Positions 26,335 through 37,798 of a stretch of DNA of 37,798 bases are shown here, piece by piece. A program made the position numbers and the translations under genes. Every line of letters starts with the position of its first letter. Position 1 is the first letter of the stretch. The DNA is from a virus: the IMG/VR virus record IMGVR_UViG_3300012931_000048, positions 1 to 37,798 of that record; one strand, given 5' to 3'. Below the pieces are notes generated by a model that worked only from the letters and a program-made list of their open reading frames with translations, did not search any database and was not told the DNA's origin.

Positions 26335-27456
26335 ATGGTAAACGATTTTAGGATATCTACATCGTTTCGGGATAATATAAAGAGGATACGCCTACAACGC
26401 GCATTAGGGCCAGAAGGTGTACTAGCCATAATTGATCTATGGGGATATGCCGCGATGAACCGGCCGGACGGTACGCTAGATGGTATGGATGATGAAGCCA
26501 TATGCATCGCAGCTAATTGGCATGGAAAGATAGATGTTTTTATAAATGCAATTACGGATAAAAGATCTAATTTTTTAGATAAGGATGCTTCCGGAAATTA
26601 TATTTTACATGATTGGTCAACTCATAACCCATATGTTTCCGGGGCTAAAGATAGATCATCATCCGCAAGAAAAGCGGCAAAAAGTAGATGGATACAACCA
26701 TTATTAGAATCGCAATGCGGAGATGATGAAACCGCAATGCGGAATGTGCGAAACCGCAATGCGGAATGTGCGAAACCGCAATGCGGAAATGACGAAACCG
26801 CAATGCGGAATATGAAAAACCGCAATGCTCCATCTCCATCTCCATCTCCATCTCCATCTCCATCTCCATCTCCATCTCCAGAAAATATTTGCAAATCTAA
26901 AAATACGGATTTGCAATCCACACCAAAAAATATTTCAAAATCAGAGTCAGGAATGCCAGAAGAAAGGACGGAAACGGCCCAAGGTTTAAATATTATTTTA
27001 AACCCGACGCAAACCACCAATGAATTAGAAAAATCAATCCTGGGGGAAATGGGGCTGGATTCTCAAAATGATAAAAATGCAGAGTTTATTGCGATATGGA
27101 ACATCTGGCCTTCAACTCGCCGGGAAAGCAAAAAGGCAGTTTTAAAATCTTTTTCTTCCGCAATAAAACGAGAAAATTTTTCCACAATCATCCAGGGAGC
27201 TAAAAATTATTGCAATTCTCCCTACGTCACTAGCCGGATTGAGATGGGAGAATTTTCCACCATCAAAACATTACCCGCATGGCTTAATTCAGATTTATGG
27301 GAAAGGGATCCTGCCTCCTTCCAAGAACCATGTGCTTCCTGGCAAAAAAAACATTGCCAAAGGGAAAAACAAAATACCGCTTTTGGGGCAACCAATTTTG
27401 TAAGTCCCCAAAGCGGTATTAATCCAAAATCACAATATCAAAATAAATGGGAATAA
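26335..27456 (+). CDS. Replication initiator / replisome organiser containing the origin
   Basis: 373 aa. The N-terminal domain (about 1-110, RISTSFRDNIKRIRLQRALGPEGVLAIIDLWGYA) is the Lin1244/Lin1753-like winged helix of phage replication proteins. The C-terminal domain (about 243-330, FIAIWNIWPSTRRESKKAVLKSF... TIKTLPAWLNSDLWERD) matches the FWxxYP...K...TWLN..W pattern of initiators. Between them, about residues 125-165 are encoded by six 22-bp DNA iterons and 165-182 by a Ser-Pro hexamer tract. Layout parallels lambda O, where iterons lie within the gene. Last gene of the operon, before a bidirectional terminator. Confidence 0.85.
   Translation: MVNDFRISTSFRDNIKRIRLQRALGPEGVLAIIDLWGYAAMNRPDGTLDGMDDEAICIAANWHGKIDVFINAITDKRSNFLDKDASGNYILHDWSTHNPYVSGAKDRSSSARKAAKSRWIQPLLESQCGDDETAMRNVRNRNAECAKPQCGNDETAMRNMKNRNAPSPSPSPSPSPSPSPSPENICKSKNTDLQSTPKNISKSESGMPEERTETAQGLNIILNPTQTTNELEKSILGEMGLDSQNDKNAEFIAIWNIWPSTRRESKKAVLKSFSSAIKRENFSTIIQGAKNYCNSPYVTSRIEMGEFSTIKTLPAWLNSDLWERDPASFQEPCASWQKKHCQREKQNTAFGATNFVSPQSGINPKSQYQNKWE
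26711..26830 (+). repeat. Six 22-bp iterons: candidate replication origin
   Basis: CGCAATGCGG recurs at 26711, 26733, 26755, 26777 and 26799, and CGCAATGC at 26821: an exact 22-bp period. From the second copy the core is the palindrome CCGCA-A-TGCGG (the sixth is truncated). Because 22 is not a multiple of three, the repeat is read in a different frame each time, so selection must act on DNA, not on protein sequence. Two-turn spacing, position inside the initiator gene, and an AT-rich flank at 26881-26945 fit an iteron origin of the lambda-O type. Confidence 0.82.
26829..26880 (+). repeat. (TCCATC)n hexamer tract
   Basis: About eight copies of TCCATC follow the iterons and encode (Ser-Pro)n in the initiator. 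The strand asymmetry (pyrimidine on +, purine on -) and the following AT-rich 60 bp could help unwinding. On the other strand the unit is GGAGAT (Gly-Asp), the same type of hexamer that builds the Gly-X genes at 27811-30309. Confidence 0.75.
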
Positions 27457-27810: not shown

Positions 27811-28026
27811 TTATCTATCGCCCGATCCATCGCCATTGCCAGCGCCATCGCCATATCCAGCGCCATAGCCATCGCCCGATCCATTGCCATCGCCATCGCC
27901 ATATCCAGCGCCATATCCAGCGCCCGATCCAGCGCCATCGCCCTTTCCCGATCCATTGCCATAGCCAGATCCATATCCACGGCCCGATTCATTGCCAAAT
28001 CCATAGCCAAATCTATTTTCCGTCAT
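27811..28026 (-). CDS. (Gly-X)n repeat protein a
   Basis: 71 aa. MTENRFGYGFGNESGRGYGSGYG... continues as nearly perfect Gly-X dipeptides (X = Tyr, Ser, Asp, Asn, Ala) to GNGDGSGDR. GGAGAATATAA lies directly before the ATG, and the first codons match those of the genes starting at 28534 and 29580 (MT-x-NRFG). All six frames are open across this DNA because of its hexamer structure, so the frame was chosen by ribosome-binding site, shared N-terminus and stop position. No known domain; low-complexity, acidic, likely disordered or silk-like. Confidence 0.65.
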   Translation of the reverse strand: MTENRFGYGFGNESGRGYGSGYGNGSGKGDGAGSGAGYGAGYGDGDGNGSGDGYGAGYGDGAGNGDGSGDR

Positions 28027-28055
28027 TTATATTCTCCGCGAATAGAGTCCTCCAA

Positions 28056-28292
28056 TTATTTAAATCCATCGACAGTTCCATCACCATCGCCTGATCCAAA
28101 GCCCGATCCAGTTCCAAATCCATATCCTGATCCATCGCCATCGCCCGATCCATCACCAACGCTATATCCAAATCCAAAGCCCGATCCATTACCCTGGCCA
28201 GCGCCATCTCCATAGCCATGGCCATCGCCAGAGCCATTGCCAAAGCCCGAGCCCGAGCCATTGCCCGATCCAGAGTAAAATTTCTTAATCAT
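28056..28292 (-). CDS. (Gly-X)n repeat protein b
   Basis: 78 aa. MIKKFYSGSGNGSGSGFGNGSGDGHGYG..., ending GTVDGFK. GGGGAAAAAA precedes the ATG, which overlaps the stop of the next upstream gene on this strand (ATGA), implying coupled translation. X positions are Ser, Asp, Asn, Tyr, Phe, with single His and Gln. The N-terminus MIKKF is shared with the gene at 28942, while the repeat body differs, as if head and body recombine. Confidence 0.62.
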   Translation of the reverse strand: MIKKFYSGSGNGSGSGFGNGSGDGHGYGDGAGQGNGSGFGFGYSVGDGSGDGDGSGYGFGTGSGFGSGDGDGTVDGFK

Positions 28293-28534
28293 TTTTTTCC
28301 CCGTCCAGATCCATCACCAGCGCCCGATCCATTGCCATTGCCATTTCCCTCACCATATCCAGAGCCAGTTTTATTTTCAGAGCCAAAGCAAAACCCCTTG
28401 CCATTTCCCTCACCATATCCAGAGCCAAAGCTAAACACATTTCCATAATCTATTTCAATTATTTTATTTTCTCCCGTCCAGCGCCTGCGCCCGATCGATC
28501 CATTACCGAATCCAAATCTATTTTTCGTCATCAT
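28289..28534 (-). CDS. (Gly-X)n repeat protein c, apparent fusion
   Basis: 81 aa. It starts MMTKNRFGFGNGS, then has a non-repeat segment SIGRRRWTGENKIIEIDYGN (about 13-32), then resumes Gly-X with two copies of a GSGYGEGNG block. The inserted segment is the translation of an inter-gene leader: TGGACGGGAGAAAATAAA followed by ATAATTGAAATA, where related leaders read ATGATTGAAAT. So two genes appear fused by loss of a start codon (ATG to ATA). A roughly 30-bp direct repeat lies at about 28339-28369 and 28400-28430. Starts at 28534 or 28531. Confidence 0.58.
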   Translation of the reverse strand: MMTKNRFGFGNGSIGRRRWTGENKIIEIDYGNVFSFGSGYGEGNGKGFCFGSENKTGSGYGEGNGNGNGSGAGDGSGRGKK

Positions 28535-28546
28535 ATTTTTTCTCGC

Positions 28547-28942
28547 TTAAAATATATATCCAGCGCCAGCGCCCGAGCCCGATCCATTGCCCGATCCAAA
28601 GCCATATCCAGCGCCATATCCAGCGCCATCGCCATAGCCAAATCCAGATCCAGCGCCATCGCCCGAGCCCGATCCATTGCCCTTTCCATTTCCAAATCCC
28701 GATCCATCGCCATAGCCAGATCCAAAGCCATAGCCAGATCCAAAGCCATCACCATCGCCATAGCCAAATCCATTGCCATATCCATCGCCATCGCCTGAGC
28801 CATAGCCATGGCCATCACTAAAGCCAAAGCCATCGCCAAATCCAGCGCCATAGCCATAGCCCGAGCCAGATCCATTGCCAAAGCCCGAGCCCGAGCCATT
28901 GCCAGAGCCAGAGCCCAATCCCAATTCAAATTTCTTAATCAT
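28547..28942 (-). CDS. (Gly-X)n repeat protein d, long form
   Basis: 131 aa. MIKKFELGLGSGSGNGSG... then about 60 Gly-X pairs, ending GSGAGAGYIF. The leader AAGCGAGAAAAAAT before its ATG is identical to that of the gene at 28534. It shares about 60 bp of identical DNA (near 28787-28850) with the gene at 29161 (about 29045-29108, GFSDGHGYGSGDGDGYG). This indicates recent recombination within the array. Function unknown. Confidence 0.62.
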   Translation of the reverse strand: MIKKFELGLGSGSGNGSGSGFGNGSGSGYGYGAGFGDGFGFSDGHGYGSGDGDGYGNGFGYGDGDGFGSGYGFGSGYGDGSGFGNGKGNGSGSGDGAGSGFGYGDGAGYGAGYGFGSGNGSGSGAGAGYIF

Positions 28943-28954
28943 ATTTTTTCTCGC

Positions 28955-29161
28955 TTAAAATATATATCCATTGCCATAGCCATCGCCAAATCCAAAGCCC
29001 GATCCACGGCCAAATCCCGATCCATCGCCACGGCCATAGCCATCGCCATCGCCTGAGCCATAGCCATGGCCATCACTAAAGCCAAAGCCATCGCCAAATC
29101 CAGCGCCATCGCCATCGCCAAATCCATAGCCATCGCCCGATCCATCTTTTATGTCGACCAT
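28955..29161 (-). CDS. (Gly-X)n repeat protein e
   Basis: 68 aa. MVDIKDGSGDGYGFGDGDGAG..., ending GDGYGNGYIF, the same C-terminal YIF as the gene at 28942. ACAGGAGAAAATAAA precedes the ATG, one of the best ribosome-binding sites in the array. It overlaps the 3' end of the upstream gene by 13 bp. X includes Arg three times. No transmembrane segment or signal. Confidence 0.62.
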   Translation of the reverse strand: MVDIKDGSGDGYGFGDGDGAGFGDGFGFSDGHGYGSGDGDGYGRGDGSGFGRGSGFGFGDGYGNGYIF

Positions 29162-29580
29162 TTTATTTTCTCCTGTCCAGAGCCGGAGCCAGCTCCATCA
29201 CCAGCTCCATCACCAGATCCATCACCAGATCCTTCGCCCGATCCTTCGCCCGATCCTTCGCCCGATCCATATCCCTCGCCATAGCCCGATCCAAATCCAT
29301 TGCCATAGCTATAGCCATCACCCGATCCATCGCCATATCCATCGCCCTTTCCCGATCCATTACCATAGCCATAGCCATCGCCATCGCCAAATCCAAAGCC
29401 CGATCCATTACAAAAGCAATAGACATCACCAAAGCCCGATCCTTCGCCATCTCCAAATCCATCGCCATTGCCATTGCCATTGCCAGATCCAGTTCCACGG
29501 CCAGAGCCAGATCCCTTTCCAAATCCCGTTCCCGATCCATATCCAGAGCCAGCGCCATCGCCAAATCTATTTTTCGTCAT
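29149..29580 (-). CDS. (Gly-X)n repeat protein f, longest
   Basis: 143 aa. MTKNRFGDGAGSGYGSGTGFG..., with one break GFGDVYCFCNGSGFG (two Cys, about 50-64) and an acidic block of repeated GSGEGSGEGSGD near the end, finishing GQEKIKWST. The C-terminal EKIKWST is the reading of the downstream leader, so this gene runs through it. CGGGAGAATATAA precedes the ATG, which overlaps the end of the upstream gene. The two Cys are exceptional in the array. Confidence 0.62.
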   Translation of the reverse strand: MTKNRFGDGAGSGYGSGTGFGKGSGSGRGTGSGNGNGNGDGFGDGEGSGFGDVYCFCNGSGFGFGDGDGYGYGNGSGKGDGYGDGSGDGYSYGNGFGSGYGEGYGSGEGSGEGSGEGSGDGSGDGAGDGAGSGSGQEKIKWST

Positions 29581-29794
29581 TTATATTCTCCCGCGATTTT
29601 ACCTCTAATTTGTCATACATCTCTTCTGCTTTTTCATATGATTTAAAAAATTTAATCGCAATTTTTTCAGGCCTAATTTTTAAAACCCGGCCAAATTTCT
29701 TTATTTTTAAATATTGTCCCTTAGTCAAGGGTTTTCCTTCTTTCCAATTTATTTTTACTGTATCAACATGAAATCCATCCGATATTTCAATCAT
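29567..29794 (-). CDS. MIEIS-family small protein, copy 1
   Basis: 75 aa of normal complexity inserted among the Gly-X genes: MIEISDGFHVDTVKINWKEGKPLTKGQYLKIKKFGRVLKIRPEKIAIKFFKSYEKAEEMYDKLE. It is paralogous to the protein at 32266-32490 (same MIEIS-GFH start, I-x-W-x-EG-x-x-L-x-x-x-QY, LKI-x-PE). GGACGGGAAAAAAA precedes the start and ATGA coupling joins it to the upstream gene. Family unknown; a small regulator of host or phage function is plausible for early genes of this size. Confidence 0.72.
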   Translation of the reverse strand: MIEISDGFHVDTVKINWKEGKPLTKGQYLKIKKFGRVLKIRPEKIAIKFFKSYEKAEEMYDKLEVKSRENINDEK

Positions 29795-30030
29795 TTTTTT
29801 TCCCGTCCAGAGCCATCACCAGCGCCAGAGCCAGAGCCATTGCCCTTTCCATTTCCAAAGCCCGATCCATCGCCACGGCCATAGCCAGATCCAAAGCCAT
29901 CACCATCGCCAAATCCCGATCCATCGCCATAGCCAGATCCAGCGCCATCACCATCGCCAAATCCCGATCCATCGCCATCGCCATATCCAGATCCATAGCC
30001 ATCGCCCGATCCATCGCCTATTTTAATCAT
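29791..30030 (-). CDS. (Gly-X)n repeat protein h
   Basis: 79 aa. MIKIGDGSGDGYGSGYGDGDGSG..., ending GAGDGSGREKK. The full modular leader (30039-30062) ends in GCGGGAGAAAAATAA before the ATG. It shares its first 16 codons almost exactly with the next gene (30309). Contains internally repeated GSGFGDGDG blocks. Acidic, with aromatic Tyr/Phe at regular intervals. Confidence 0.65.
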   Translation of the reverse strand: MIKIGDGSGDGYGSGYGDGDGSGFGDGDGAGSGYGDGSGFGDGDGFGSGYGRGDGSGFGNGKGNGSGSGAGDGSGREKK

Positions 30031-30038
30031 TTATTTTT

Positions 30039-30062
30039 CTCCCGCGATTAGAGTCCGCCGAC
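30039..30062 (-). promoter_or_regulatory. Modular leader L1
   Basis: On the minus strand it reads GTCGGCGGACTCTAATCGC then GGGAG, placing the ribosome-binding site before the ATG at 30030. Same element as at 30318, 30693, 31867, 32213 and 32600. Confidence 0.75.
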
Positions 30063-30066
30063 TATA

Positions 30067-30309
30067 TTAATCGCCATATCCATAGCCATCGCCAAATCCA
30101 GCGCCATAGCCCGAGCCAGAGCCATCGCCATCGCCACGGCCACGGCCCGAGCCATATCCATTGCCATCGCCACGGCCATCGCCATCGCCATAGCCATCGC
30201 CATCGCCCCGGCCAAATCCATTGCCAGATCCATAGCCCGATCCAGAGCCACATCCACGGCCATAGCCAGATCCATAGCCATCGCCCGATCCATCGCCTAT
30301 TTTAATCAT
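30067..30309 (-). CDS. (Gly-X)n repeat protein i
   Basis: 80 aa, first of the Gly-X genes in transcription order. MIKIGDGSGDGYGSGYGRGCG..., ending GAGFGDGYGYGD. X includes Arg at several positions and one Cys. The modular leader (30318-30341) with GCGGGAGAAAAATAA precedes the ATG. Its TAA stop is immediately followed by the leader of the next gene. Confidence 0.65.
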   Translation of the reverse strand: MIKIGDGSGDGYGSGYGRGCGSGSGYGSGNGFGRGDGDGYGDGDGRGDGNGYGSGRGRGDGDGSGSGYGAGFGDGYGYGD

Positions 30310-30317
30310 TTATTTTT

Positions 30318-30341
30318 CTCCCGCGCTTAGAGTCCGCCGAC
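30318..30341 (-). promoter_or_regulatory. Modular leader L2
   Basis: Minus-strand GTCGGCGGACTCTAAGCGC followed by GGGAG, nine bases before the ATG at 30309. Nearly identical to the other leaders. Confidence 0.75.
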
Positions 30342-30387: not shown

Positions 30388-30684
30388 CTACTCGAGACAT
30401 TCCTCGTAGGTTTTTTCAGCCAATTCCGTAGTCGGAATTAACTCGATCGCTTCGGTGAGTAAGATCTCCCCAGTCCGCTCGGTTCTCCCGCCTTTCATTC
30501 CTTCATTGGCGATGGCAGATAGAGATAGTCCACCACCCTCCCAACACCAGATACGGATTGAGGAAGTTAAATAAACTTCCTTGCCTAAGACGTATTCCAC
30601 GTGGCCCCAATGCACTCCCGCCGAATACGTCCGCACGATACAATTCCGCCCAACCATTGGGTTTACTATTGTTTTTTCCGTCAT
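30388..30684 (-). CDS. DUF6948-like phage protein
   Basis: 98 aa. CIVRTYSAGVHWGHVEYVLGKEVYLTSSIRIWCWEGGGLSLSAIANEG... TGEILLTEAIELIPTT matches the conserved pattern I recall for DUF6948 (VRTYSAGVHxG ... GKEVxLxxxRRIWxWxGAxxLxxIAxxG ... EIxLTEAIEIIP), small phage proteins of unknown function. GCGGAGAAAATATA precedes the ATG. The coding sequence contains perfect inverted repeats (30422-30428 with 30433-30439; 30561-30568 with 30574-30581). Confidence 0.8.
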   Translation of the reverse strand: MTEKTIVNPMVGRNCIVRTYSAGVHWGHVEYVLGKEVYLTSSIRIWCWEGGGLSLSAIANEGMKGGRTERTGEILLTEAIELIPTTELAEKTYEECLE

Positions 30685-30692
30685 TATATTTT

Positions 30693-30715
30693 CTCCGCGC
30701 TTAGAGTCCGCCGAC
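30693..30715 (-). promoter_or_regulatory. Modular leader L3
   Basis: Minus-strand GTCGGCGGACTCTAAGCGC then GGAG, serving the ATG at 30684. Same element as the other leaders. Confidence 0.75.
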
Positions 30716-30744: not shown

Positions 30745-30891
30745 CATTTATGCCCATATTTCCATGCCGCTGCGCCTAGAGCGCGTAAAAATTCCTCTCT
30801 CGCATCATCTGGGTAGATCTGTATCTCTCTCGCGCCGCATGTGCACCCCTCCCACGGGCATAGATGCTTTCGTATGCGCCATTTCAATCAT
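30744..30891 (-). pseudogene. Truncated MIEIS-family gene copy
   Basis: The last 44 codons read RIRKHLCPWEGCTCGAREIQIYPDD... FLRALGAAAWKYGHK, clearly homologous to the C-terminal half of the protein at 32266-32490 (RILKHLCPWEDCTCGGRDLKIYPEE... FLRALGAAAWEYGHI). The first codons ATG ATT GAA also match its start, but the middle third is deleted and start and body are in different frames. The only possible start in the body frame is a TTG overlapping the previous stop. A relic or a TTG-started short protein. Confidence 0.65.
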
Positions 30892-31351
30892 TGCATTCCT
30901 CCTCCCTCTCCAAAGCGACACCAAATTTTAGCAAAGAAGAAAAAAAAGTACTAACGTTGCTGTGGCCGGAATCCCATTGGATCTCCGCCCACTCTCCATA
31001 TCCCCCTGGATATGGTATCTTGCCGAGGGGTTTGGCCCTGAAAAAACGATTCAGACGGTATGAATTACTACTGTCGGTGAATTCAGGATCGGGACGCCAT
31101 TCATACCAAGCGCCCAGTTTGGTTATCAAGCGCCCAGTTTGGACTTCCTCCATCTTTGTAATTTTGGCAATTCGATATAGTCGGGCTGGACCGATAACTC
31201 GTACCGCGTCCAACGGCGTTCGGCCAAAAACATCAGGCGCAATTCCCATAGCCAAGGCTTCCATTATTGGCGCCACTTGCGATTCTAAAACAATTAATTT
31301 TCCGGACTTTTTTTTCAATTCCAAATCCGGGTAGGGGATGAACTTATGCAT
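30884..31351 (-). CDS. Early protein, unknown, first gene behind promoter P1
   Basis: 155 aa with AAAGGAGAAATAAA before the ATG, 35 bp from the P1 -10 box. MHKFIPYPDLELKKKSGKLIVLESQVAPIMEALAMGIAPDVFGRTPLDAVRVIGPARLYRIAKI..., ending EREEECND. Mixed alpha/beta, no signal or membrane segment. The coding DNA holds a 16-bp direct repeat CAAGCGCCCAGTTTGG (31107-31122, 31127-31142), read in two frames, and a perfect hairpin (30996-31003 with 31008-31015). No family recognised. Confidence 0.75.
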   Translation of the reverse strand: MHKFIPYPDLELKKKSGKLIVLESQVAPIMEALAMGIAPDVFGRTPLDAVRVIGPARLYRIAKITKMEEVQTGRLITKLGAWYEWRPDPEFTDSSNSYRLNRFFRAKPLGKIPYPGGYGEWAEIQWDSGHSNVSTFFSSLLKFGVALEREEECND

Positions 31352-31385: not shown

Positions 31386-31414
31386 ATTATATCTCAATCG
31401 GCCCTAGATGTCAA
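31386..31414 (-). promoter_or_regulatory. Early leftward promoter P1
   Basis: On the minus strand TTGACA (31414-31409), 17-bp spacer, TATAAT (31391-31386): perfect sigma-70 consensus, with an A-rich UP-like tract upstream. The surrounding 67 bp (31369-31435) are identical to those of P2. The start of transcription should fall near 31379, giving a short leader to the ATG at 31351. Confidence 0.9.
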
Positions 31415-31866: not shown

Positions 31867-31891
31867 CTCCTGCGCTTAAGGTCCGCCTGAC
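31867..31891 (-). promoter_or_regulatory. Modular leader L4
   Basis: Minus-strand GTCAGGCGGACCTTAAGCGC then AGGAG before the ATG at 31859; one extra base relative to the other leaders. Confidence 0.72.
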
Positions 31892-32212: not shown

Positions 32213-32234
32213 TCTGCGCTTAAGGTCCGCCGAC
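32213..32234 (-). promoter_or_regulatory. Modular leader L5
   Basis: Minus-strand GTCGGCGGACCTTAAGCGC followed by AGAAAAAA before the ATG at 32203; here the GGAG core has decayed. Confidence 0.72.
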
Positions 32235-32243
32235 CAGTTTTAT

Positions 32244-32268
32244 TGAGTGGCCGCTTTGCGGCCACTCA
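32244..32268. terminator. GC-rich hairpin (copy 3)
   Basis: TGAGTGGCCGC pairs perfectly with GCGGCCACTCA across a TTT loop. The TGA stop of the gene at 32266-32490 lies in its right arm, as in the related copy at 30724. Confidence 0.68.
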
Positions 32269-32490
32269 TATATGCCCATATTCCCATGCCGCTGCGCCTA
32301 GAGCGCGTAAAAATTCCTCTCTCATCTCCTCTGGATAGATCTTCAGGTCTCTCCCTCCGCATGTGCAGTCCTCCCACGGGCACAAATGCTTTAGTATGCG
32401 CCGATATTGCCGAAGGCTCAATACCTCGCCTTCGTACCAATCAACTCTTATTGCCGCGACATTATGAAATCCGCCACTAATTTCAATCAT
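32266..32490 (-). CDS. MIEIS-family small protein, copy 2 (with Cys cluster)
   Basis: 74 aa: MIEISGGFHNVAAIRVDWYEGEVLSLRQYRRILKHLCPWEDCTCGGRDLKIYPEEMREEFLRALGAAAWEYGHI. Paralogue of the protein at 29567-29794, but with an added CPWEDCTCG segment (Cys37, 42, 44) that could bind metal. AAAAGGAGAAAGAAA precedes the ATG, 37 bp from the P2 -10 box, so it is the first gene of that transcript. The coding DNA has a perfect 7-bp inverted repeat (32411-32417 with 32428-32434). Unknown function. Confidence 0.76.
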   Translation of the reverse strand: MIEISGGFHNVAAIRVDWYEGEVLSLRQYRRILKHLCPWEDCTCGGRDLKIYPEEMREEFLRALGAAAWEYGHI

Positions 32491-32526: not shown

Positions 32527-32555
32527 ATTATATCTCAATCGGCCCTAGATGTCAA
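32527..32555 (-). promoter_or_regulatory. Early leftward promoter P2
   Basis: Minus-strand TTGACA (32555-32550), 17-bp spacer, TATAAT (32532-32527). Identical to P1 over 32510-32576. An A-rich tract lies upstream. Confidence 0.9.
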
Positions 32556-32599: not shown

Positions 32600-32623
32600 C
32601 TCCTGCGCTTAAGGTCCGCCGAC
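32600..32623 (-). promoter_or_regulatory. Orphan modular leader L6
   Basis: Minus-strand GTCGGCGGACCTTAAGCGC then AGGAGAAAAAA, but the expected ATG is GTC and no ORF follows: promoter P2 begins instead. It is the remnant of a module whose gene was lost or replaced. Confidence 0.68.
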
Positions 32624-32868: not shown

Positions 32869-32897
32869 ATTATATCTCATTCAGGCCTAGATGTCAA
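32869..32897 (-). promoter_or_regulatory. Early leftward promoter P3
   Basis: Minus-strand TTGACA (32897-32892), 17-bp spacer, TATAAT (32874-32869). The spacer is a variant of that in P1/P2 (TCTAGGCCTGAATGAGA). The outermost early promoter. Confidence 0.9.
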
Positions 32898-34732: not shown

Positions 34733-37700
34733 AAACGATACAATTTGTGGTATTTTTTGTATTATTTTCTATTAGATCATATGCGGGTGCATATTGGACG
34801 CAATGTAATCCTGATGGAATGGGATTAGTTTCTTTATTTTCAGAGGATGGGGAGATTTTATTTTGGGATTGGAGTGATGCCCCGGTGTATGAATATGGGG
34901 GATCGGTGATAGAAGCAGAAGTGGGATCAGTAGTAGGGGATGAAATTTTTTCTGGGGATACGGTGAGTCATTATGGGGGATATTACACGATAACGGCAGG
35001 GATACCTATACCAGCGTCATTTGCGGTAGGTCAGGCGACGGATGATTTTTCAATAATTCAGTTTTCTGTAGCGAGTTCACATGTTGATATAGAGGAAGCG
35101 AATGGTATAAATTCAGAATTTATGCAGACGTTTGGGTATGATTTAATTGTATGTAATATAATACCAAACGCTACTGATGAAATTAACCGGATTGAGTATA
35201 ATGAATATGAAAATTTAGTTGGAAATGTTTTATGTGTTCAAATTAAGATACCTGATAGTTACCAGGGAAGTACATTTTGGTTTTATTTAGATGCGCAAAC
35301 GTATAGGTCAGATGGATATCTATTACAGCATGGATTTACGGAAGATGCGTATTTAGTATTAGGGGAGAATGAGGCGACAGCAACACCTACAGTAACACCG
35401 ACAGCAACTCAGACACCTACTAATACAGAGACATCTACGCCAACGCCGACGCCGACGAGTACTGCAACTTTCACATTTACGCCGACGAAAACTCCTACGG
35501 TTCCTCCTACGCCTACTGGTACATTTACTAGTACATTCACGCCTACAGCAACCTGGACGCCGACGAAAACAAAGACGCCGACGCCGACGAGTACTGCAAC
35601 TTTCACATTTACGCCGACGAAAACAAAGACGCCTACTGCTACGGCTACATCAACATTTACGTTAACTCCGACATCGACATCAACGCCTACGCCAATACCG
35701 GGTATTTTAGATATAGCGGTAGTTGATATTGAATCTGCTACATCGGTGCAGATTCCTGGATGGACAAATTTATCTGTTGTAATCCGGAATATAGGAACTA
35801 TATCTTGTGCGACATCAACGATTTTATCCGTTTCAAATACATCGGATGAGGTTGTTTATGGGACGTGGACAATTTTACCGGGTATTCCGGCTCCTGGGGA
35901 TGAGACGACATATCAGTGTTACATCACAACGATGGGATTATCAGATGGAACTAAATCATTGAGGGCTTATTTTGATCTTGATGACAATGATATTTCAAAT
36001 AACGAATTAATAAGTACAATAGAATTTTTACCAGAATTTACGCCGACGCCAACGGTTATACCGACTTATACGTTTACGAGTACGCCGACAGCCACAGATA
36101 CGCCGACAGTAACGCCGACGCCGACATTTACTCCGACGGTTACAAATACTCAGACATTTACGTCTACGCCTACGTTTACGATGACGCCGACAGTTACGCC
36201 GACAATTATTCCAACAATAATAACCGAGGTAGATGCAGATGATGAATTGAATTTATGGCCGGGTGGGGCGAGGGCTGGAGCGATTCATGGTGGTATTATT
36301 GGAGCAACGCATGTTTTTGATTTATTACCGTCGGTTGGAGGTTTTACGTTAGATGATATTGCATATCAATTTCGTAGGGGGGATATAATCACAGTTAATG
36401 ATGCTACAGAGGCCTATCGATTATCCCTTGTTGGAACGAAGCATTGGGAGCCGATTGGTGCATCTGCAGCGCTTGTAGGGATAATGGAGGCAAGTGTAGA
36501 AAATCATGAGAATCGGATAAATTTATTGGAAATAACTGAAACGCCAGTTCCCACAGTAGTTATTACGGGATCGGGTAATGCAGGAATAACTACGGTAGTT
36601 GGTGGGTATAATATTGATGTACCAACAAATGTTCCGACATCAACATCAACGCCTACGCCTACATTAACCACCACATTTACCCCAACAAACACATTTACGA
36701 TGGTACCCACAGTAGTACTTACGGGAGGAGGGATAGCCGGGATCACTCCGGTGTCTGGAGGATATCAGGTGAATGTGCCTAATCCGACTGCCATCCCGAC
36801 CTACGCCTACACGCCACCCACGGCGCAGCCGACATATGCTTATACTCCACCGACGGCGATTCCAACGCTGGTGATAACGGGTGGAGGGATAGCAGGGATT
36901 ACGCCGGTAACTGGTGGATACAATGTGCAAGTGACAAATCCGACTGCCGCGAGTACGCCTACACCCCAACCAACTTATGCTTATACGGCTCCGACTGCTG
37001 CGAATACACCTACTCCTCAACCTACTACAGTACTTACGGGAGGAGGGATAGCCGGGATCACTCCGGTGTCTGGAGGGTATAATATACAAGTTCAAAATCC
37101 TACGGCAGCGAGCACGCCTACACCTCAGCCAACTTATGTGTATACAGCGCCGACCGCCGTCCCCACGGTAGTTATTACGGGTGGAGGGAGTATTACGGTA
37201 ACGCCAGTCAGCGGTGGGTATAATTTAAATTCACCGGTTTTTTCCTCGACATTATTGGACAATGTATTTAGTACAACTGGGTTACTAAAGCGGACTGGAA
37301 CTGCTACTTATACTACGATAACAGATAACTCATCCACTTGGGATAAGGCTTTGCAATGGGATGGGGGATCAACCTCCTTGGTATCAGCAACGGGTAGGAC
37401 TTCGCTTGGTTTGGGGTCAGCGGCTGTATTGGCTTCTGAAAACCCCGTGGCTAATGATGGAAATCTTCCCACAGGTGCGGCGGTAATAGCATATGCTACA
37501 AATATTATTTCTTCTCTTGTTGGTAATTATTTAAAATTAAACACGTCAAATAATAATGAATTGACGGGAACAATCGGAAATAAACTAACAAATAGTTCAT
37601 TTGACCAATCGACATCACGTATAGCTAATGCACAGACATCCTATGCCACTGGCGCGGCTAACGCGTTGTTGCTCAATGCGTCGACATCTTTTATCGGTGG

Positions 37701-37798
37701 AGGGAGCGGGAGTGGATATGAATTAACGGTAAATGGAGATACGTATATCGGTGGAGGGAGCGGGAGTGGATATGAATTAACGGTAAATGGAGATACGT
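34729..37798 (+). CDS. Giant tail fibre/adhesin with signal peptide, cut by window end
   Basis: Open for 1023 codons from the ATG at 34729 (ATGA overlap) with no stop before the edge. A signal-like N-terminus (MKTIQFVVFFVLFSIRSYAGA), a globular domain (about 20-215), TPT linker (about 216-324), a CARDB-like domain (about 325-440, GILDIAVVDIESATSV... LRAYFDLDDNDISNNE), second TPT linker (about 442-500), a short globular part, then five GGGIAGITPVSGGYN modules separated by Pro/Thr/Tyr linkers (about 610-835), then a fibre-like region (RTGTATYTTITDNSSTWDKALQWDGGS) and GGGSGSGYELTVNGDT repeats. Likely the receptor-binding fibre; secretion signals on phage fibres are unusual. Confidence 0.85.
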   Translation, partial: MKTIQFVVFFVLFSIRSYAGAYWTQCNPDGMGLVSLFSEDGEILFWDWSDAPVYEYGGSVIEAEVGSVVGDEIFSGDTVSHYGGYYTITAGIPIPASFAVGQATDDFSIIQFSVASSHVDIEEANGINSEFMQTFGYDLIVCNIIPNATDEINRIEYNEYENLVGNVLCVQIKIPDSYQGSTFWFYLDAQTYRSDGYLLQHGFTEDAYLVLGENEATATPTVTPTATQTPTNTETSTPTPTPTSTATFTFTPTKTPTVPPTPTGTFTSTFTPTATWTPTKTKTPTPTSTATFTFTPTKTKTPTATATSTFTLTPTSTSTPTPIPGILDIAVVDIESATSVQIPGWTNLSVVIRNIGTISCATSTILSVSNTSDEVVYGTWTILPGIPAPGDETTYQCYITTMGLSDGTKSLRAYFDLDDNDISNNELISTIEFLPEFTPTPTVIPTYTFTSTPTATDTPTVTPTPTFTPTVTNTQTFTSTPTFTMTPTVTPTIIPTIITEVDADDELNLWPGGARAGAIHGGIIGATHVFDLLPSVGGFTLDDIAYQFRRGDIITVNDATEAYRLSLVGTKHWEPIGASAALVGIMEASVENHENRINLLEITETPVPTVVITGSGNAGITTVVGGYNIDVPTNVPTSTSTPTPTLTTTFTPTNTFTMVPTVVLTGGGIAGITPVSGGYQVNVPNPTAIPTYAYTPPTAQPTYAYTPPTAIPTLVITGGGIAGITPVTGGYNVQVTNPTAASTPTPQPTYAYTAPTAANTPTPQPTTVLTGGGIAGITPVSGGYNIQVQNPTAASTPTPQPTYVYTAPTAVPTVVITGGGSITVTPVSGGYNLNSPVFSSTLLDNVFSTTGLLKRTGTATYTTITDNSSTWDKALQWDGGSTSLVSATGRTSLGLGSAAVLASENPVANDGNLPTGAAVIAYATNIISSLVGNYLKLNTSNNNELTGTIGNKLTNSSFDQSTSRIANAQTSYATGAANALLLNASTSFIGGGSGSGYELTVNGDTYIGGGSGSGYELTVNGDT
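36557..37215 (+). repeat. Five-fold module repeat in the fibre
   Basis: A unit reading V-(V/L)-(L/I)-T-GGG-IAGITPVSGGY recurs near 36559, 36712, 36869, 37025 and 37161, joined by PTA-x-(S/N)TPTPQPTYAYT linkers. The second and fourth units share about 47 identical bases (36714-36760 and 37028-37074), so the array was made by recent duplication. Confidence 0.8.
37692..37798 (+). repeat. 54-bp tandem repeat at the window edge
   Basis: 37692-37745 is repeated from 37746 to the end (53 bases present). It encodes IGGGSGSGYELTVNGDTY, 18 residues, in frame, so it is consistent with a real fibre repeat. A repeat at this point would also stop a short-read assembly, explaining the window end. Confidence 0.85.

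Follow-up and report, generated by a model that had tools for sequence, protein, structure and literature searches.

In eukaryotic Sm and LSm proteins, the Sm fold is accompanied by low-complexity tails, such as the RG tails of SmD1 and SmD3 and the tail of Lsm4. Among bacterial proteins, Hfq of Acinetobacter baumannii carries GGFGGQ repeats and an acidic tip, and the number of its repeats matters to function (PMC11617691); the acidic Hfq tail mimics and displaces nucleic acid (PMC5606850). Here we describe a phage locus in which a low-complexity chain is encoded by genes of its own. IMG/VR record IMGVR_UViG_3300012931_000048, a 37.8-kb virus record analyzed over its whole length of 37,798 nucleotides (the window), carries an array of eight small open reading frames (ORFs) on the minus strand at 27811–30309. 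Each is a GX gene, a small ORF for a (Gly-X)n protein with a period of two residues or six bases. The array amplifies the second gene of an undescribed two-gene phage module. That module occurs in phage sequences numbering well over a hundred, and its first gene belongs to the DUF6948 family.

The module resembles A. baumannii Hfq in having an Sm-fold core, predicted for DUF6948, and a Gly-rich, partly acidic low-complexity chain. The Hfq tail, however, lies in cis and has another repeat, whereas GX is a separate and often multiplied phage gene; nor does DUF6948 show a significant sequence match to Hfq (0.7% probability in a profile comparison with one E. coli Hfq sequence). With eukaryotic Sm/LSm proteins it again shares a predicted Sm fold and a low-complexity chain, and one locus (L084) is a natural fusion of DUF6948 and GX in a single ORF, but DUF6948 lacks the Sm1 and Sm2 motifs, and the GX chain is separate and has few Arg residues. 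The upstream gene of the window belongs to PF22253 (DUF6948; phrog_18306), a family without an assigned function for which we found no record of a GX partner or an Sm-like fold. One GX protein (L288) has the N-terminal DUF7666 domain of certain phage proteins (PF24703), which most GX proteins lack.

GX itself has no match in PHROGs and, in Pfam, only a low-complexity match to TrAA12 below cut-off. The literature searched held no mention of DUF6948, and a search for the phage GX string GYGDG returned a single paper, on bacteriocins of pig-gut bacteria. Two superficially similar protein types were set aside. Collagen-like phage proteins repeat Gly-X-Y with a period of three, against two residues in GX, and the Gly-Tyr tails of bacterial tyrosine kinases end proteins of about 800 aa with Tyr at nearly every X, against GX genes of about 83 aa with mixed X residues. 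A genome-wide Gly-X scan of bacteria yielded mostly such tyrosine-kinase-like (GY)n tails, on long proteins that we take from their sequences to be tyrosine kinases.

DUF6948 and GX genes are near-invariant partners

We pulled viral contigs by the Gly-X DNA pattern alone; counts based on this pattern cover the matches listed. The ORFs neighboring GX were dominated by DUF6948, to which the window gene at 30388–30684 belongs. Because single linkage may chain unrelated ORFs, the DUF6948 blast cluster of 118 loci was recounted with a hidden Markov model (HMM), which found the family at 109 loci besides the window. DUF6948 lies on the same strand as GX in all 109 and upstream in 105, typically overlapping it by 1–19 nt. 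Among the pattern-found loci listed, 115 had 400 nt or more of DNA upstream of GX, and 106 of these have a DUF6948-superfamily gene directly upstream: 96 by HMM, nine of a divergent type reading DRGFVYVG...WGTTKGLGEL (hhalign 99%, E 3e-18) and one of a type called DUF6948 by Pfam. HMM, hhalign and Pfam found no such gene upstream at the other nine. An earlier note, made from this DNA alone, had suggested searching metagenomic phage contigs for GX ORFs near DUF6948-like genes.

The reverse search, with DUF6948 as the query, gave more than 580 IMG/VR matches, from which 80 loci were kept; 59 of these had enough downstream DNA. A GX ORF adjoins DUF6948 downstream in 55 of the 59, a count from phylogenetically non-independent loci found with a query built from GX-linked members. 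The four exceptions (L355, L356, L384 and L407) have GX ORFs richer in Ala, Glu or Trp, and a looser residue set brings the count to 59 of 59. Among deposited phage records, tblastn with one DUF6948 member matched 15 of 50,697. All nine named phage records that we opened, eight of these 15 and one (L349) reached through a GX-associated domain (F1, below), have a GX ORF beside DUF6948. PF22253 was likewise found in 8 of 11 pattern-bearing genomes tested and in 0 of 14 control genomes. The pairing of DUF6948 and GX is near-invariant. The earlier note knew of no similar phage family; indeed no described family covers GX, but the module is widespread, with a DUF6948 gene immediately upstream as its constant feature.

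The GX array of the window

All eight ORFs proposed by the earlier note are present, with lengths of 68–143 aa and starts at 28026, 28292, 28534, 28942, 29161, 29580, 30030 and 30309. All lie on the minus strand. GX gene 1 (30067..30309, 80 aa), the first after DUF6948, and GX gene 2 (29791..30030, 79 aa) begin with the MIKIGDG type of N-terminus. They are followed by GX gene 3 (29149..29580, 143 aa, MTKNRFG type), GX gene 4 (28955..29161, 68 aa), GX gene 5 (28547..28942, 131 aa, MIKKF type), GX gene 6 (28289..28534, 81 aa), GX gene 7 (28056..28292, 78 aa, MIKKF type) and GX gene 8 (27811..28026, 71 aa, MTENRFG type). Every ORF starts with ATG and most have a GGAG/GAGA ribosome-binding site 8–12 nt upstream; adjacent genes overlap by 4–14 nt or stand 12–36 nt apart, in line with the ribosome-binding sites and close packing noted before.

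The window contains 207 runs of eight consecutive in-phase GG hexamers, whereas shuffling it 100 times with dinucleotides preserved gave none. Of the 207, at least two fall outside the array, at 26830–26879. A protein predicted at 26335–27456 contains an (SP)n stretch (SPSPSPSPSP) that comes from a perfect six-base repeat at 26828–26880.

Near-full-length Gly-X alternation, claimed before for all eight ORFs, holds for seven, which are 42–48% Gly with a pI of 4.05–4.24. GX gene 6 is only partly Gly-X (31% Gly, pI 9.5): it leaves the Gly frame over GRRRWTGENKIIEID and then re-enters it. This gene is thus a recombinant hybrid, and it shows recombination between copies and one tolerated frame change. 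It begins with MTKNRFG, runs out of frame for a stretch, and then carries the remnant of a second leader (IIEIDYG) followed by a Gly-X tail.

GX genes bear the marks of protein-coding selection

Codon choice at the X positions of the window depends on the amino acid encoded. A third-base purine is present in 43 of 69 TCN codons, where it is silent (Ser), but in 5 of 69 GAN codons, where it would give Glu (Fisher p=4e-12), and in 5 of 27 AAN codons, where it would give Lys (Fisher p=2e-4). Since third-base purines are common in TCN and rare in GAN, the array retains Asp and avoids Glu. A further 238 GX ORFs, a few from named phage records and most from contigs of uncultured viruses, have Tyr (34%), Ser (27%), Asp (24%) and Asn (8%) as X residues. 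These ORFs use mainly C-ending codons (GAC, TAC, TCC), while the window uses GAT, TAT and AAT for similar residues; none of its 164 X codons for Asp, Tyr, Asn and Phe ends in C (p=4e-11), a pattern that a recent hexamer expansion is expected to leave.

Codon-level selection between related phages, which the earlier note had proposed to measure, gave ratios of nonsynonymous to synonymous substitution (dN/dS) of 0.45 and 0.11 in two clear GX orthologue pairs (arrays L430 and L431, 90–91% identical), showing purifying selection on GX in both. More diverged comparisons, some of them between paralogues, gave 0.24–0.50. The earlier note had said that it would be refuted by homologous contigs that tolerate frameshifts and preserve no more than the hexamer DNA. 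The dN/dS values of intact orthologues contradict that outcome, although one gene of the window is frame-mixed. Competing frames over the array read MAMDLAMD, IAIAK and PSPDP, and the ribosome-binding sites and the codon selection signature mark the Gly frame as the one in use. GGC makes up 60% of Gly codons in GX and 7% in eight other genes of the window phage. On these sequence grounds, the GX ORFs of the array are real protein-coding genes.

The array is also rich in two short DNA words. GATC occurs at 50 sites in the 2.5 kb of 27811–30309, mostly in GGA-TCN codon pairs, whereas a proportionate share of the sites in the window would be about 13; 50 of the 58 window copies of CCATCG fall within the same span. 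A DNA function for the GATC (Dam-site) enrichment was considered and dropped, as it is explicable by the GGA-TCN codon pairs.

GX genes have been overlooked or misread in phage records. For Iodobacter phage phiPLPE, PMC3391216 (Table 3 and text) describes (KMGCCG)35 as a GC-rich repeat that might serve as an attachment site. A GX gene at 46045–46293 of the phiPLPE record contains exactly 35 KMGCCG hexamers and lies directly after the DUF6948 gene phiPLPE_84, at a position with no annotated CDS; the published repeat is this GX gene. In Chlorobiaceae phage CV-1-33, a GX gene is annotated as CDS gene25 (L341 4266–4537) but read in the wrong frame, giving MAMAMA.

Distribution and variety of GX proteins

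Carriers of the module include phages of Iodobacter, Pectobacterium, Vibrio and Chlorobiaceae, and bacterial genome contigs with pattern loci are labeled Sphingomonas, Methylococcaceae, Paludibacteraceae and Acidobacteria, among others. Most loci have one GX gene, and copy number ranges from 1 to at least 8. Arrays comprise eight genes in the window and in L431, six in L430 (as counted in the retrieved stretch under the rule applied), four each in L432, L433 and L437, and others besides. A leader of 5–20 residues precedes the repeat, and N-termini vary between phage groups. Over 185 GX proteins the median pI is 4.05, with 161 below 5; the families L032, L045 and L321 are rich in Asn/Tyr or Arg/His.

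Some GX proteins end in folded domains: F1, a conserved domain of about 150 aa, at around a dozen loci (L046, L253, L272, L310, L313 and others), F2 at six (L274, L317, L318 and others) and F3 at two. F1 and F2 have no Pfam or PHROG match, and F3 has two weak PHROG matches only (E~0.03). Because F1 and F2 follow GX in nearly every contig inspected and match no family, they offer no functional clue. Within 4 kb of the module, recurring genes are those that we take, from reading their sequences, to be an exonuclease, ERF, SSB and a DnaB-like protein.

DUF6948 has a predicted Sm-like fold

The window DUF6948 gene (30388..30684, minus strand, 98 aa) matches PF22253 at 67.2 bits (E=1.4e-18), above the Pfam gathering score (cut-off 27). 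AlphaFold modeled its product with a pLDDT of 93 and a pTM of 0.84, and a second family member with a pLDDT of 96.5. In four comparisons of the two models, the top 50 PDB matches were all Sm/LSm chains, with TM about 0.5 and best Z scores of 8.7 (rmsd 2.3, 66 residues) and 7.5 (rmsd 2.1, 61 residues). DUF6948, of about 95 aa, is predicted to form a strongly bent, Sm/LSm-like beta-barrel. An hmmsearch of the PDB with DUF6948 profile A1 found no Sm chain. As the predicted fold is Sm-like but sequence profiles give no homology support, we do not file DUF6948 as an Sm/LSm member.

Genomic context and expression signals

Upstream of the operon lies a consensus sigma-70 promoter (TTGACA-17-TATAAT, 12/12, 17-nt spacer; 31386..31414, minus strand), and identical 12/12 sites stand on the same strand at 32527–32555 and 32869–32897. 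Between the promoter and DUF6948 is a 155-aa gene without a family match (30884..31351, minus strand). A repeated leader, GTCGGCGGACTCTAAGCGCGGGAG (listed also as GTCGGCGGACYYTAAGCGC), precedes GX gene 1 (30318..30341, minus strand), with copies before GX gene 2 (30039–30062) and the DUF6948 gene (30692–30715) and further copies at 31872–31890, 32216–32234 and 32600–32623; 4 and 6 matches were found, against 0–0.01 expected. Three perfect promoters and a repeated leader ahead of the operon fit early, strong expression without proving it. The earlier idea of an early phage system gains from them, since the region is of early type and has same-strand 12/12 promoters at 32897, 32555 and 31414.

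The earlier note, which had mentioned DUF6948-like genes nearby, did not list a non-Gly gene located within the array (29567..29794, minus strand, 75 aa, pI 9.5), which overlaps its neighbors by 4 and 14 nt. It has no family match, and a search of IMG/VR for relatives found none. This gene (start MIEISDGFHVDTVKINW) and another small one at 32266–32490 (start MIEISGGFHNVAAIRVDW) resemble paralogues, neither with a family match over cut-off.

The window has a podovirus-type gene set of terminase, Head-tail_con portal, major head protein, tail protein, RecT-like annealing protein, RusA and DnaC-like loader. We found no relatives of its DNA among cultured phages. Two identical 54-bp copies at 37692–37798 end the record inside an open ORF, possibly an assembly artefact.

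A proposed mechanism and its alternatives

We tentatively propose, at a little under even chances, that in an Sm-like assembly handling nucleic acid early in infection, GX serves as a detached low-complexity tail. DUF6948 (gene A) would form the folded, probably oligomeric, nucleic-acid-handling core. GX (gene B) would provide a short, mostly acidic, Tyr-bearing (Gly-[Tyr/Ser/Asp/Asn])n chain behind its leader. Because B directly follows A and usually overlaps it, the two are probably translationally coupled. Many copies of B would supply A with a multivalent Gly/Tyr/Asp chain, so that, early in infection, the complex could become concentrated within the cell or let go of its nucleic acid. Such a design recalls the disordered tails used by Hfq and Lsm4, here in trans. 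An electrostatic version, with acidic GX on basic DUF6948, found no support in the charge comparison; as the window DUF6948 is acidic, a pure charge model is weakened and a multivalent Gly/Tyr scaffold favored. A broader claim is possible but rather doubtful: that phages carry a widespread split Sm-type ribonucleoprotein system, in which an Sm-like core and a separate (Gly-X)n scaffold, often amplified, together assemble a nucleic-acid condensate specific to the phage early in infection.

Several points weigh against the detached-tail proposal. Foldseek E values of 4e-3 to 3e-2 and a maximum Z of 8.7 are near the level of a coincidental shared arrangement. Profile comparison of DUF6948 with Sm was not significant (2.5% probability, single-comparison E 0.019). 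The best alignment runs in the Sm1 register, yet the RNA-binding D..MN residues are absent, and the Sm1/Sm2 motifs with their RNA-binding Asp/Asn and Arg-Gly are not conserved in the profiles. The window DUF6948 has a pI of 5.0, and across loci DUF6948 charge does not correlate significantly with GX charge (rho -0.17, p=0.06). One gene of the array, GX gene 6, is a frame-mixed hybrid, and DUF6948 members unlinked to GX may escape a query built from linked ones. Pure (Gly-X) chains could form sheets instead, and we infer, rather than observe, A–B binding, rings, RNA or DNA binding, condensation and early timing.

An acidic GX could instead act as a nucleic-acid mimic or competitor, stripping RNA or DNA from the DUF6948 assembly or occupying a host nucleic-acid-binding protein without condensates. 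The low pI of most GX proteins (median 4.05; 161 of 185 below 5) and the displacement of nucleic acid from Hfq by acidic tails (PMC5606850) speak for this, but the conserved traits are Gly alternation and Tyr/Ser/Asn rather than charge density, L032, L045 and L321 are Asn/Tyr- or Arg/His-rich, and the window DUF6948 is itself acidic; we consider a mimic unlikely. More unlikely still, in our view, is a module for counter-defence or host takeover, in which GX would be a decoy, an inhibitor or a sensor-blocker. An arms race would account for amplification and fast-changing repeats, in keeping with small early-type genes, 12/12 promoters, a copy number of 1 to at least 8 and N-termini that vary by phage group. 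A near-obligatory single partner and recombination and replication neighbors suggest, rather, a phage-intrinsic job, and no defence or anti-defence match turned up, none having been sought.

In silks, Gly-X alternation places the X side chains on one face, and the strict two-residue alternation of GX would do the same; self-assembly into beta fibers or sheets with a structural role is nevertheless improbable, as sheets would be expected to stack poorly with Asp at roughly one X position in four, the genes sit in an early-type region away from structural genes, and coupling to DUF6948 would go unexplained. Least credible is that the hexamer DNA itself is functional, as an attachment site, recombination hot-spot or methylation array, with an incidental reading frame. 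The attachment site speculated for (KMGCCG)35 of phiPLPE (PMC3391216), the uniformly T-ending X codons of the window (0/164 C-ending, p=4e-11) and the 50 GATC sites of the array would suit it. Against it stand the Asp-versus-Glu codon bias (p=4e-12), dN/dS of 0.11–0.45, the use of different codons for similar residues (GAT/TAT/AAT in the window, mostly GAC/TAC/AAC elsewhere) and the shared strand of GX and DUF6948 in 109 of 109 listed loci. The non-coding hexamer reading is already contradicted.

Implications

GX is a protein type that annotation pipelines have missed or placed in the wrong frame, yet it is a regular companion of DUF6948, with phages and prophages across several bacterial phyla carrying the module. 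DUF6948 gains a predicted fold and a partner, and a published repeat of phiPLPE is reinterpreted. GX proteins also offer very small natural low-complexity proteins for testing sequence-driven self-assembly in bacteria. If the function that we infer is true, phages would have made a split counterpart of the design that joins an Sm core to a disordered tail.

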